Assembly (NCBI GenBank): GCA_958295785.1
Contig: OY282377.1
Location: 758,394 to 822,393, forward strand
Origin: an uncultured Latescibacterota bacterium
Lineage (GTDB): Bacteria; Latescibacterota; UBA2968
Direction: 5' to 3'
Length of the DNA stretch: 64,000 bases
Shown piece by piece: positions 43,671-48,384 of the stretch (its first letter is position 1; each line of letters starts with the position of its first letter). The notes under the pieces are model-generated. The model had not been told where the DNA came from and made no database searches. It worked only from the letters and a program-made list of their open reading frames with translations. Both the position numbers and the translations under genes were made by a program.

Positions 43671-43731
43671 ACGAAGGGTAGGGGCGTGGCCCTCGTGCGC
43701 CCAAAATCAGTGGTCAGTCCCCGCCCATCCC

Positions 43732-43814
43732 ATTGAAGCCTACCCGGTGGGATAGCGTGTGAAATCTCAGCTTGTTCTCTGAATTGCAAGAATCCGCGGT
43801 CGTCGGGGTTTATT
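43732..43814 (+). pseudogene. Relic of the 3' end of a LuxE-like ligase gene
   Basis: This stretch aligns base for base with 46862-46944, the last 27 codons of the ligase gene 2 kb downstream. ATTGAAGCCTAC matches ATCGAAGCCTAT, and GAATCCGCGGTCGTCGGGG matches GAATCCGTGGTCGTCGGGG. One extra base and a stop codon break the frame. The end IEAYP, LFSELQES and VVGVY is still readable in pieces. It is therefore an old, decayed paralogue end or duplication scar, located just before the AAA/TOPRIM-like module. Confidence 0.8.
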
Positions 43815-43913
43815 CGCGTAGCGGTCAACCCACATGGAGAACAGAATCATGCCCCGATGCGCCGGTATATTGCCTCCGACCACACCCCGTCAGACCGCTT
43901 GGAGAATAGCACC

Positions 43914-45017
43914 ATGCTCACGCACCTCAAATTGTGCAAATACCGAGGTTTTGAATCGTATGAACTCGCCGACCTCGCCCGTGTGAATCTGCTCGTCGGC
44001 AAGAACAACTGCGGCAAAACTTCCATTCTCGAGGCCGTACACTTTCTGGTCTCGAAAGGCGATCCATCTGTTCTCGCACAAGTAGCCCAGCGGCGCGGCG
44101 AGGATAGTATTCGCTACGATGAGGATGTAAGACACGGACAAAAAACGCCCGCTGGGCCAAATATTTCGCACTTTTTTTTGGGACACCATTTCGAACTTGG
44201 CGTGGGTTTTAGTCTTTCTTCTGATGCAGGTCGGGTTTCAGTGAAAATTGTTACAGGCAATAATTCCGAGAGGCAGACTTCGTTTTTCGAGGATCAGGAT
44301 GGGGCCAGTCAGCCCTTTGGCCTCAGCATTGAGAGCAACCTCATCGATAGCGATAGGCTTCCCGTTTTTCCCGTCTCTGAAAATGGCGTGCTAGTACTCG
44401 AGAATCAATTGCGCTTTATACGGTCCGAGATTTGGCCTAAACTTCCCCCTATCGAGTTCATCGCCCCCGATTTTCTCAATTTCAATGCCATGCGATCTAT
44501 ATGGGATCAGGTTCTAATGACAGGCCGTGAATCCGAGGTCATCAACGCCTTGAATATTTTGGAGGAGGATCTGCAATCCATTCACTTTCTCACAGGTGAC
44601 CCTAGGCTAACATCGAGATCAGCCGGTATCTTGCTGGGATTTCGCGGCGATGCCCGGCGCGTGCCTATCGGTAGCTATGGCGATGGCATGCGCCGTCTCC
44701 TCGCGCTCTCGCTTTCTCTTGTACAATCCGCAAATGGCTTCTTGCTGATCGATGAGATCGACACGGGTTTGCACTGGACCGCGATGGAAGATATGTGGCG
44801 GCTGATCATCCACACGGCGCGGCAATCCTCAATACAGGTCTTTGCCACAACCCACAGCTACGATTGCATCCGAGGGCTCGCCGCTCTCATCGAATCCAAA
44901 CCCGATCTGGCCTCGGATGTTTCAATTCAGAAAATCGAGACCTCATTGGAAAAGGCCGTGAGTCTCAACGCCGAGAGAATACAGGTGGCTGTCTCACAAG
45001 ATATCGAGGTTCGGTAA
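43914..45017 (+). CDS. AAA/ABC-type ATPase of the OLD/PARIS AriA-like group
   Basis: A 367-residue SMC/RecF-like ATPase. ATG 43914 begins MLTHLKLCKYRGFESYEL, as in AAA_15/AAA_21 proteins. Walker A GKNNCGKTS is at residues 29-37; the ABC signature-like GSYGDGMRRLLALSLSL and Walker B GFLLIDEIDTGLH follow near residues 260-290, and TTHSYDCIRG gives the switch His. The stop TAA shares one base with the start ATG of the TOPRIM-like gene, a clear two-gene unit. ATPases of this type guard against phages by sensing foreign proteins and licensing an attached nuclease (PARIS AriA with AriB, OLD family). The match is by architecture only. Confidence 0.82.
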   Translation: MLTHLKLCKYRGFESYELADLARVNLLVGKNNCGKTSILEAVHFLVSKGDPSVLAQVAQRRGEDSIRYDEDVRHGQKTPAGPNISHFFLGHHFELGVGFSLSSDAGRVSVKIVTGNNSERQTSFFEDQDGASQPFGLSIESNLIDSDRLPVFPVSENGVLVLENQLRFIRSEIWPKLPPIEFIAPDFLNFNAMRSIWDQVLMTGRESEVINALNILEEDLQSIHFLTGDPRLTSRSAGILLGFRGDARRVPIGSYGDGMRRLLALSLSLVQSANGFLLIDEIDTGLHWTAMEDMWRLIIHTARQSSIQVFATTHSYDCIRGLAALIESKPDLASDVSIQKIETSLEKAVSLNAERIQVAVSQDIEVR

Positions 45018-45681
45018 TGGCAGGATCGAGCGCGCGTTCTCGCGCCTTCACGTTGAGGGCACTGATGACAGCCACGCAATACGGCACCTGCTCATCAGGC
45101 ACGGAATTGACTACGACCAGCAACCATGGCCAGATCATTTCCCGCGCATTGATGAGATAGGCAACAAAGATGAACTGCTCAAAGGAGTCGAAACCGCCGT
45201 ATCCCTGAGTAATGGACGATCAGTCGGCTTTGTATTGGATGCCAACACTTCGCGCCAAAGCCGATGGGATGCAATGGCGACGCGACTCCGAAATGTCGAA
45301 TTGCGTGTACCGAGAGACATCCCAACCGAGGGGTTCGTCGGCGAGTCCATGAGGTACCGCGCTCGAGTGGGTGTGTGGCTTATGCCCGACAACCGGCGAG
45401 AGGGCATGTTGGAACACTTTCTCGAGACCCTCGTCAGCGAGGATGATCCGCTATTTCCACACGCCCAACAGTCAACGGAACAAGCGAAAACACTGGGAGC
45501 AAGATACACCAAAAACGAGAAACCGAAGGCCGTGCTTCACACTTGGCTCGCGTGGCAGAAGAATCCGGGCTTGCCTTATGGCTCGGCCATCCGAGCGCGG
45601 TATTTGGATCACGACAGTGAGGTAGCCGAGCGTTTTGTCGCTTGGTTTCGCCGTGTGTTCCAAATTGCCGACAGCGCGTAA
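45017..45681 (+). CDS. DUF3226-like (TOPRIM-fold) partner of the ATPase, frame disturbed near its start
   Basis: The 220-codon open frame ending at 45681 reads RIERAFSRLHVEGTDDSHAI near the start and SVGFVLDANTS further on. A Glu in VEGxDD and an acidic LDAN motif are those expected of a TOPRIM fold, as in DUF3226/DUF4435 proteins. ATG 45017-45019 overlaps the ATPase stop but is in another frame; one extra base after ATGGC would give M-A-R-I-E-R in frame. So either one base was lost or a rare start is used. TOPRIM partners of such ATPases cleave nucleic acid (AriB cuts tRNA in PARIS). Function here is inferred from pairing. Confidence 0.7.
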
Positions 45682-45682
45682 C

Positions 45683-45800
45683 CACTCGGCGAATCAACGG
45701 TTAGCAGTCAGCAATCAGTACAGGCATTGCCTTGGGGCGGATGGGCGGGGCTGACCACTGACCACCAACCACCAACCACCGATCACCGATCACTGATTTT
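45683..45800. repeat. Dispersed-repeat spacer
   Basis: Between the TOPRIM-like gene and the ligase lies a run of GACCACTGACCACCAACCAC and ACCGATCACCGATCACTGA units plus a GTTAGCAGTCAGCAATCAGT stretch. It holds no gene. GAAAGGGC lies before the ligase start. Confidence 0.7.
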
Positions 45801-45857
45801 GGGGTTGGGCGGGGAACTCTCCACGCTCCCCTGATTCACTGAAAGGGCTTTACAACG

Positions 45858-46946
45858 ATGGAAATTCTCACGACACCCATCGCCGACAAGGTCAAAGCAG
45901 CGCACGAGGTCCTCAATGCCCATGTGCGCGACATGGTCGCATGGCATTTTGATCCCAACACGGGTTGTCCATTTTGGCTGGACTTTGCGCGGGGCTTGGG
46001 CTTTGATCCGCGTCGGGAAATCGGCGGATACGGCGATTTGAAGCTCCTCGGGCATTTCCAAGACGAATGGTTGCGCGGCGGGCCCGTGCGCCGATGGATT
46101 CCCAAGGGGAGCGAGGGAGAACGCACGTACGTCTTTGAAACGGGTGGCTCGACCGGCGTACCCAAATACCGGATCAGCCAAAACGATTTTCAAATTGACT
46201 ACAAAATGTTCAGCGACCACCTTTCTGAAGAAACATTTCCCAAGGGGGCGGATTGGTTGATGCTGGGGCCGACGGGCCCTCGGCGCTTGCGTTTGGCTGT
46301 CGAATACCTGTGCCAGATTCGCGGGGGAATTTGTTTTCTCGTCGATCTCGATCCCCGATGGGTCAACAAACTGATCAAGCGCGGCGCGTTCCACGAATTG
46401 GAACTCTACAAAGCCCACGTCATCGACCAAGCCCTCACCGTTTTGCGCGCCAACGACAATGTGAAATGCATGTTCACAACCCCCAAACTCCTCGAGGAAT
46501 TGTGCGAAAAAATATCCCTGCAAAAAGCCGGCATCAGCGGCATCTTTTGCGGCGGCACAGAGATGGACGCGCAATTCAACCGCTTTGCCCGAGAAGAATT
46601 GATTCCCGGCATCGATTTTGTTCCCACCTACGGCAACACGCTCATGGGCTTGGCCTATTCCAAGCCCCTCGAACCGGAAGACAACTACGCCATTACCTAC
46701 TACCCGCCCGCGCCCCGCGCATTTATCGAACTGGTTGATCCGAACAATCCCGACGCGACGGTCGACTACGACGAAGTGGGTCGCGTGATGCTCACGACCC
46801 TCACCCGAGAATTTTTCATGCCCCGGTTTCTCGAACGCGACGAAGCCGAACGCGCCAAACCCATCGAAGCCTATCCTTGGGACGGCGTGCGAAACCTCGG
46901 CCTGTTCTCCGAGTTGCAGGAATCCGTGGTCGTCGGGGTTTATTAA
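45858..46946 (+). CDS. LuxE-like acyl-AMP ligase (acyl-protein synthetase/arylcarboxylate reductase ligase component)
   Basis: A 362-residue member of the ANL adenylate-forming superfamily of the short LuxE type. The P-loop FETGGSTGVPKYR is at residues 93-105. GISGIFCGGTEMDAQ and FVPTYGNTLMGL follow, the latter being the adenine-binding A5-like motif; YDEVGRVMLTTLTREF carries the Asp of the ribose motif. LuxE-like enzymes activate a carboxylic acid as acyl-AMP and hand it to a LuxC-type reductase. A LuxC-like gene (48482) and iron alcohol dehydrogenase (49888) lie downstream, but two inserted genes separate them. A decayed copy of its 3' end lies at 43732. Confidence 0.82.
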   Translation: MEILTTPIADKVKAAHEVLNAHVRDMVAWHFDPNTGCPFWLDFARGLGFDPRREIGGYGDLKLLGHFQDEWLRGGPVRRWIPKGSEGERTYVFETGGSTGVPKYRISQNDFQIDYKMFSDHLSEETFPKGADWLMLGPTGPRRLRLAVEYLCQIRGGICFLVDLDPRWVNKLIKRGAFHELELYKAHVIDQALTVLRANDNVKCMFTTPKLLEELCEKISLQKAGISGIFCGGTEMDAQFNRFAREELIPGIDFVPTYGNTLMGLAYSKPLEPEDNYAITYYPPAPRAFIELVDPNNPDATVDYDEVGRVMLTTLTREFFMPRFLERDEAERAKPIEAYPWDGVRNLGLFSELQESVVVGVY

Positions 46947-47186: not shown

Positions 47187-48326
47187 CTAAGGCAAGCCCA
47201 CTTCGCGGCAGAAGGTCGAGAATGGCAGAACGCGCGTGTTGGTTGTTTCATTGCCAAAATCCTTTGCCCCCAGATGCACTTGGTAAAACCGCGAAATATC
47301 CGTCCGTTCTCTGAAATACCTGCATGCGGGCGAAGCATTTCGCTCGCCACTCTTGCACTCGACAGCAAATTCCGCGCGTCCATCGCGGAGAACGACAAAA
47401 TCTACCTCGCGCTTGTCGGTATCGCGAATAAAGCGCAATTCCATGTCATACCCTTCCGTATCTTCGACATAGTGGCAGTACTTCAGCAGGTGTCCCGCCA
47501 CCATGTTCTCGAACCGAGCCCCTCGGTCTGATATGCGCGACCAGTCCCAGAAATACAACTTTTTCTCTTTGCGGACAGCCCTTATGCGCTTCGCTCCAAA
47601 CGGCGGAATGCGATAGCACAAGTACAGCCTTTCAAAGATCGCAAGCCAGCGTTCGACGGTTATGAAAGCCACTTGCAGGAGTTTGCTGAGGCTGTTGATC
47701 GAAAGAGGGGAACCCACGCATGCGGGCAGGTGAGACAGCAGCAGATCCAACATGGACACCTCCCGCACATGCTCCAAGTCGCGGAGATCTTCATAGATAA
47801 CTCGTGCGGAATGCTCGCGCAGCCAGCGGCGATGAAAGCGTGCCTCTCCCCTGAGAAAAGGTTCGGGAAAACCGCCGAACCTGAGCAATTGAGCCACGAG
47901 CGCGTCATCGGCCTCCCGACTGCATTCCGTCATCGTGAACGGGTGAAGCCGGTAGTAGTGATACCGTCCCTGCAAAGAGTCACCGCCTTTGCGATAGTAG
48001 TCCAGCCTGGCCGAACCCGTGACGATGAAAGAAACGGATGTTCTGTTCTTATCGAACAATCCCTTCATCAGATTGCGCCACTGTGCGTACTTGTGAATTT
48101 CGTCAAAAATGACGCGAGTTTGTCCGGGGGGAAGGCGTCCCGCCAAAATATCCCCGCGGTCAGCCAGCACATCCCAGTTCATGTATGCCGGTGACGATTC
48201 ATTTTGACCTCGCCCCAGTAGCGCGATGGCGAGGGTTGTTTTTCCAACTTGGCGTGGACCGCCGATGAATACCATCCTGTCCGCGAGATCCTCTTCAATA
48301 CCATTTTCGATATAGCGAGATTCCAT
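47187..48326 (-). CDS. AAA ATPase with C-terminal DUF4143 domain
   Basis: ATG 48326 is preferred over the in-frame ATG at 48353: GGAAAGGTGG stands before the former, while the latter abuts a palindrome with no ribosome site. Length 379. Walker A GGPRQVGKTTLAI is near residue 21, Walker B RVIFDEIHKY near residue 80, sensor VTGSARLDYY near residue 110. The C-terminal part, with LYFWDWSR, FENMVAGHLLK and VDFVVLRDGRAEFAVECKSG, is the DUF4143 nuclease-like domain with an acidic/Lys ECK motif. Such proteins are common, often transferred, and of uncertain function. The upstream 13-bp palindrome may be an operator. Confidence 0.88.
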   Translation of the reverse strand: MESRYIENGIEEDLADRMVFIGGPRQVGKTTLAIALLGRGQNESSPAYMNWDVLADRGDILAGRLPPGQTRVIFDEIHKYAQWRNLMKGLFDKNRTSVSFIVTGSARLDYYRKGGDSLQGRYHYYRLHPFTMTECSREADDALVAQLLRFGGFPEPFLRGEARFHRRWLREHSARVIYEDLRDLEHVREVSMLDLLLSHLPACVGSPLSINSLSKLLQVAFITVERWLAIFERLYLCYRIPPFGAKRIRAVRKEKKLYFWDWSRISDRGARFENMVAGHLLKYCHYVEDTEGYDMELRFIRDTDKREVDFVVLRDGRAEFAVECKSGERNASPACRYFRERTDISRFYQVHLGAKDFGNETTNTRVLPFSTFCREVGLP

Positions 48327-48352
48327 GTTTGACCACCTTTCCAATTGGATCA

Positions 48353-48384
48353 TGAGTATTTTAGACCGAACTCTAAAATACTCA
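48353..48384. promoter_or_regulatory. Perfect 13-bp inverted repeat upstream of the ATPase gene (probable operator)
   Basis: Arms TGAGTATTTTAGA (48353-48365) and TCTAAAATACTCA (48372-48384) with a 6-base spacer. A third half-site, TTTTAGAGT, follows at about 48391. It lies between the divergent DUF4143 ATPase and LuxC-like genes and has no T-tract, so it looks like a dyad for a repressor. Confidence 0.65.

Follow-up and report, generated by a model that had tools for sequence, protein, structure and literature searches.

On the forward strand of the window (the whole 64,000-nucleotide stretch of DNA analysed here, part of a 5.66-Mb genome assembled as a single contig and referred to the uncultured phylum Latescibacterota, to which the nearest named relatives of its DUF3226 copies belong), an open reading frame for a DUF3226 protein comes after an ABC-type ATPase gene, and we consider it fairly probable that the two belong to PDC-M38 and constitute an anti-phage split OLD nuclease, in which the ATPase would sense infection and hold a DUF3226 TOPRIM nuclease inactive until triggered. 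As a candidate immune module of split, OLD/PARIS-like design the pair is widespread, and its DUF3226 component is newly assigned, by computation, to the TOPRIM nucleases. With this assignment and its near-obligate ATPase partner, a "domain of unknown function" becomes part of an immune module open to testing, and an invariant Arg at the C-terminus of the ATPase provides a one-residue handle on the way in which the nuclease is held in split ATPase-TOPRIM systems. The interest of the window copy itself is modest, since it may be broken.

Composition of the module and start of its second gene

The ATPase gene (43914-45017, + strand; 367 aa) is full length and intact, residues 1-367 of its product being aligned with positions 1-383 of the 383 in the PADLOC component model PDC-M38A (PDLC04611; E 1.1e-70). 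The second-best PADLOC family, also matched over the full length, is AbiLi (PDLC02336; E 1.7e-49), and the Pfam scores are 83.5 bits for AAA_21 and 79 bits for AAA_15. Nucleotide-binding motifs are complete: the switch motif ATTHS is found beside a Walker A motif, GKNNCGKTS (43998-44024), and a Walker B motif, FLLIDEID (44739-44762), and the G, N, G and K of the former as well as D280 and E281 of the latter are invariant in 27 sequences. An AAA_15/21-type ABC ATPase carrying these two motifs, as described in an earlier note made from the letters of the sequence, is therefore indeed present. Promoter and terminator predictions were no more numerous than in shuffled sequence.

The open frame of the second gene (44965-45681, + strand) scores 195.6 bits against the DUF3226 model of Pfam (cut-off 27; E 1e-57) and matches the PADLOC component model PDC-M38B (PDLC04624) with E 1.5e-44. 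Both VEGTDD and LDAN, the motifs on which the earlier note had recognised a DUF3226-like protein, sit in this one frame, and the identification is far beyond chance. The one-base overlap that it had taken for the start of DUF3226 proved to be something else: the ATG at 45017, which overlaps the ATPase stop, opens a short frame (45017-45160, + strand) that ends after 47 codons with a stop at 45158-45160, and the frame of VEGTDD has no ATG, GTG or TTG before 45235, that is, until past the first catalytic motif. In relatives, DUF3226 starts at this same place, no more than a few bases from the ATPase stop and often as TAATG or TGATG. The distance from the ATG at 45017 to the VEG codon is 35 bases, one fewer than the 36 that would keep the frame, and rare start candidates lie in frame at 45025 (ATC), 45001 (ATA) and 44989 (CTG). 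Either a frameshift has occurred nearby, an assembly error of that kind has been made, or a rare start codon is used. As the overlapping ATG is out of frame and no ATG, GTG or TTG precedes the catalytic motif, the DUF3226 gene of the window is probably frameshifted or provided with an unusual start, and a frameshift at its beginning has probably impaired this copy. A programmed frameshift fusing both genes was also considered and set aside as the poorer fit; relative to the ATPase, the ancestral overlapping ATG has kept its usual frame, and this favours a frameshift mutation after the start.

DUF3226 as a predicted TOPRIM nuclease

Five lines of computation (AlphaFold2, Foldseek, Pfam, profile comparison and conserved residues) agree in that DUF3226 looks like a TOPRIM nuclease. 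The AlphaFold2 model, built on 71 sequences, is of high quality (pLDDT 94, pTM 0.90) and shows strands alternating with helices, with E12 ending strand 1 and D73 ending or following strand 3. When this model was compared with the PDB using Foldseek, the sole biologically coherent match was the C-terminal region of XcOLD, the Xanthomonas OLD protein (TM 0.48/0.51, probability 0.82, with a weak E of 0.13), other matches being unrelated or partial; a search of the viral structure library returned nothing informative for DUF3226. The Pfam family OLD-like_TOPRIM was matched by 7 of 25 Latescibacterota members, two of them above the cut-off. Profile comparison related DUF3226 to DUF4435, the AriB family, with the VEG..D and DxD motifs aligned (E 6e-6, probability 85%), to DUF4276 (E 8e-6) and, with our alignment A1 of 25 Latescibacterota proteins, to OLD (E 2.7e-4), the probability of the last match being just 6% with the 71-sequence alignment A4. 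The negative control, an ATPase alignment, yielded a probability of 0.7%. Because the profile match to the AriB-type DUF4435 is better than that to OLD, we lean slightly towards RNA rather than DNA as the putative substrate.

Conserved residues of DUF3226 (E12, D16, D73, D75, E131 and K169, numbered from 45022) follow the order E, D/E, DxD, E, K/R of OLD enzymes (PMC7049728). E12 and D16, which belong to VEGTDD in the first TOPRIM motif (45055-45069), are each present in 71/71 sequences. The second motif reads D73-A-N75 in the window (45238-45246) and D-x-D in 70 of the 71 sequences of A4, the window copy being the only one with N; it retains all the other residues listed. The invariant acid E131 (45412-45414; 71/71) is likely a second-metal ligand, and K169 (45526-45528; K in 71/71 of A4), at a conserved K/R position, likely corresponds to K562 of class 2 OLD, both roles being assigned by reference to OLD (PMC7049728). 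A TOPRIM nuclease fold had been suggested by the earlier note, with structure prediction as a check; the model and its Foldseek comparison returned a TOPRIM-like fold, and the OLD-like_TOPRIM matches, profiles and conserved residues also speak for the suggestion. Within A1, DxN or DxE is found in 17 of the 25 Latescibacterota proteins (window copy counted), and these are spread over several separate subfamilies.

How much of the module is still operative in this genome is a separate matter. With a likelihood only just short of even, the window copy may be the decaying remnant of a once-active PDC-M38 pair, in which the frame of the second gene was lost after its start, the TOPRIM site drifted and the ATPase alone is now made. 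The displaced ATG at its ancestral place, the lack of a common start codon ahead of the first motif and the exceptional DxN are all in keeping with such decay, as are the long terminal branch of the window protein in the tree and the state of another copy in the same genome (L004), the second gene of which is likewise broken. Conversely, neither frame is otherwise interrupted and each aligns with its family over the full length, other Latescibacterota pairs that are intact also have N or E in place of the second Asp, and a one-base assembly error would look identical. Decay of this kind concerns the window copy and is compatible with a split-OLD defence role for the family. The long branch lies, with moderate support, apart from the other Latescibacterota copies and has Bacteroidota, Cyanobacteriota and Chloroflexota sequences as neighbours, the nearest row being just 38% identical; in our best explanation, the window copy and the other three in the same genome go back to separate acquisitions.

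Pairing, ATPase tail and genomic distribution

A single scan of species genomes retrieved 446 DUF3226-related loci. Among 85 loci drawn from genomes and viral contigs, the DUF3226 gene was readable in 81, and in 79 of these an ATPase gene lies directly upstream on the same strand, an arrangement also seen in plasmid records. Examples of intact pairs are those of Candidatus Contendobacter (L064:4825-6609) and Calothrix NIES-4105 (L039:4846-6615). The earlier note would have given up its reading had homologues occurred only in single-gene housekeeping contexts; the relatives turned out to be almost always ATPase pairs.

The ATPases paired with DUF3226 share an ending that, to judge from the families compared here, is new and distinctive. 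The window ATPase terminates in Glu-Val-Arg-stop (tail at 45006-45014), and the final Arg is invariant in the 79 loci, preceded two places before by Glu in 72 and by Asp in 6. Since this Arg is encoded by all six of its codons and the 79 ATPases fall into 30 clusters at 50% identity, the constraint acts on the protein. ATPases of other TOPRIM families end differently: those upstream of DUF4276 (L210-L246) mostly possess a conserved GELWxKNxxGGRP-like C-terminal tail, whereas those upstream of RloB have other tails, not Glu-x-Arg. The consistent association of the Arg tail with DUF3226, and of other endings with other TOPRIM families, suggests that the tail serves to dock the partner. A read-through translation of a relative's pair (L064; 594 residues), used purely as a modelling device, gave a model with pTM 0.82, which among PDB structures was matched best by TsOLD, retron Eco8 and GajA.

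These features can be assembled into a putative mechanism. An oligomer of the ATPase would sense an infection signal and would hold the DUF3226 protein inactive, docked partly via the C-terminal Glu-x-Arg tail; a trigger would then free or activate the nuclease, which would cut nucleic acid by two-metal catalysis and, in the manner of AriB in PARIS, keep the infected cell from growing, so that the outcome would be abortive infection. More tentatively, we raise the possibility of a partner code, whereby the free tail of each ATPase (Glu-x-Arg-COOH for DUF3226, GELWxKNxxGGRP-like for DUF4276, others for RloB) might dock its own TOPRIM nuclease and keep it off until infection; DUF3226 pairs might accordingly form a class of their own within split OLD immunity, present in several divergent copies beside many DUF4276 genes in one genome. 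The source genome contains four DUF3226 loci, twelve DUF4276 matches, one RloB, one DUF4435 (PARIS-like, L142) and a GajA-like protein (L134), unusually many genes of the ATPase-TOPRIM type for one genome.

The module lies within a lineage-specific insertion of 2169 nt (43675-45843, + strand), flanked by a PQQ-type beta-propeller gene and a CoA-ligase-like gene that adjoin each other in ten congeners; none of the ten has the insert at this site. The insert carries a relic (43722-43814, + strand) of the 3' end of the CoA-ligase-like gene at 45858-46946, with 85% identity over 67 nt. Sequence comparison further located an intergenic repeat in a left copy (43700-43731) and in right copies (45738-45815) inverted with respect to it. 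Its core, TCAGTGGTCAGTCCCCGCCC, occurs in both orientations, and the same repeats give about 40 matches in intergenic DNA across the genome. Their role as ends of a mobile element or cassette is ruled out by this dispersal. Accordingly, short repeats and a gene relic do border the module, as the earlier note had it, but the repeats are not cassette-specific ends. An ATPase gene on the minus strand (47187-48353), downstream of the module by about 1.5 kb, matches the PADLOC candidate PDC-S01 (E 1.5e-49); a similar sequence adjoins the ligase gene in several congeners.

The mobile character proposed for the module is supported by its absence from the congeners and by the carriage of related pairs on plasmids and phages. 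A 4071-bp ColRNAI-type plasmid of Klebsiella apparently has no cargo other than the pair, which is also carried by Acinetobacter plasmids and, on a Plesiomonas plasmid, is placed after phage tail genes. IMG/VR contains five DUF3226 loci, and on two phage contigs from it the pair adjoins a baseplate gene, one of them with a restriction-methylase gene ~1 kb upstream; the annotated phage collection contained no DUF3226 match. Plasmid and phage carriage is typical of defence cargo.

Could the pair instead be an ATPase-nuclease for genome maintenance or regulation? There is a precedent in Cran1, an archaeal class 5 OLD protein reported in such a capacity (PMC12796447), and the Latescibacterota pairs do sit among ordinary metabolic genes. 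Moreover, the search for other defence genes near the pair, which the earlier note had proposed as a check, turned out negative: in Latescibacterota, defence genes were not enriched in 20 pair-centred stretches relative to 20 control stretches at fixed positions. The pair is, on the other hand, patchily distributed (15/60 relatives) with several divergent copies per genome, forms the cargo of small plasmids and phages, and in the window occupies an insertion missing from congeners, all of which argues that it is accessory rather than housekeeping. We therefore regard a non-defence role as unlikely and retain anti-phage defence as the preferred reading. The control stretches (L168-L187) happened to contain a CBASS-like HORMA/TRIP13/NucC/cyclase set and type III CRISPR proteins. 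Another DUF3226 pair, found in the source genome and in congeners (L148, L152, L165), stands immediately before a trpD-like gene (5-nt gap in L001) and may be expressed from a tryptophan operon.

Comparison with known systems

The pair is already catalogued, as candidate system PDC-M38 of PADLOC-DB 2.0. Both window proteins match its two components and their genes are adjacent; the window copy differs in that component B lacks a normal start and has DxN. PDC entries are guilt-by-embedding candidates, mostly without experimental validation (PMC12988326), and in full-text searches of the open-licence literature neither DUF3226 nor PDC-M38 turned up in any paper. The "undescribed variant" of the earlier note is thus wrong in part, PADLOC-DB already listing the pair as PDC-M38A/B.

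PARIS (AriA ATPase plus AriB, a DUF4435 TOPRIM; "class 4 OLD") responds to anti-restriction proteins such as Ocr and acts through tRNA cleavage. Like the module described here, it consists of separate, adjacent ATPase and TOPRIM genes, and the window ATPase has the AAA_15/AAA_21 domains required of its first component; the nuclease, in contrast, is DUF4435 in PARIS and DUF3226 here. The published rule calls for an ATPase with an adjacent DUF4435 (PF14491, at least 27 bits) (PMC9122126), and, as this defining second gene is absent, the module is not PARIS. One might still envisage a PARIS system with a diverged AriB, given the identical gene order, the distant profile similarity of DUF3226 to DUF4435 and the profile match of the ATPase to AriA in the PDB. 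This appears very improbable to us: the window protein has no Pfam DUF4435 match, so that the module fails the published detection rule (PMC9122126), and the AriA model of PADLOC matches the window ATPase with E 1e-27, a far weaker match than that of PDC-M38A (E 1e-70). The single AriA-like protein of the source genome, for its part, does not end in Glu-x-Arg. Of the resemblance to PARIS and OLD that the earlier note had pointed out, the likeness holds, in profiles and in structures, whereas membership of PARIS does not.

AbiL (AbiLi/AbiLii), RloA/RloB and DUF4276 pairs are likewise composed of two genes, an ATPase and a TOPRIM-like partner, and differ from the present module in the family of that partner. 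In the case of AbiL, the ATPase is of the AbiLi type, but AbiLii is absent, the second gene having matched PDC-M38B models only. Beside the pair, in contrast to GajA and retron Eco8 systems, no UvrD-like helicase or reverse transcriptase was recognised. Finally, OLD classes 1-3 combine ATPase and TOPRIM in one chain, whereas the window module distributes them over two genes in different frames; what it has in common with the OLD family (TsOLD, GajA and the retron Eco8 effector) is the ABC ATPase fold and, in the DUF3226 family, the E...D / DxD / E / K pattern, of which this copy has all but the second Asp of DxD (Asn here).
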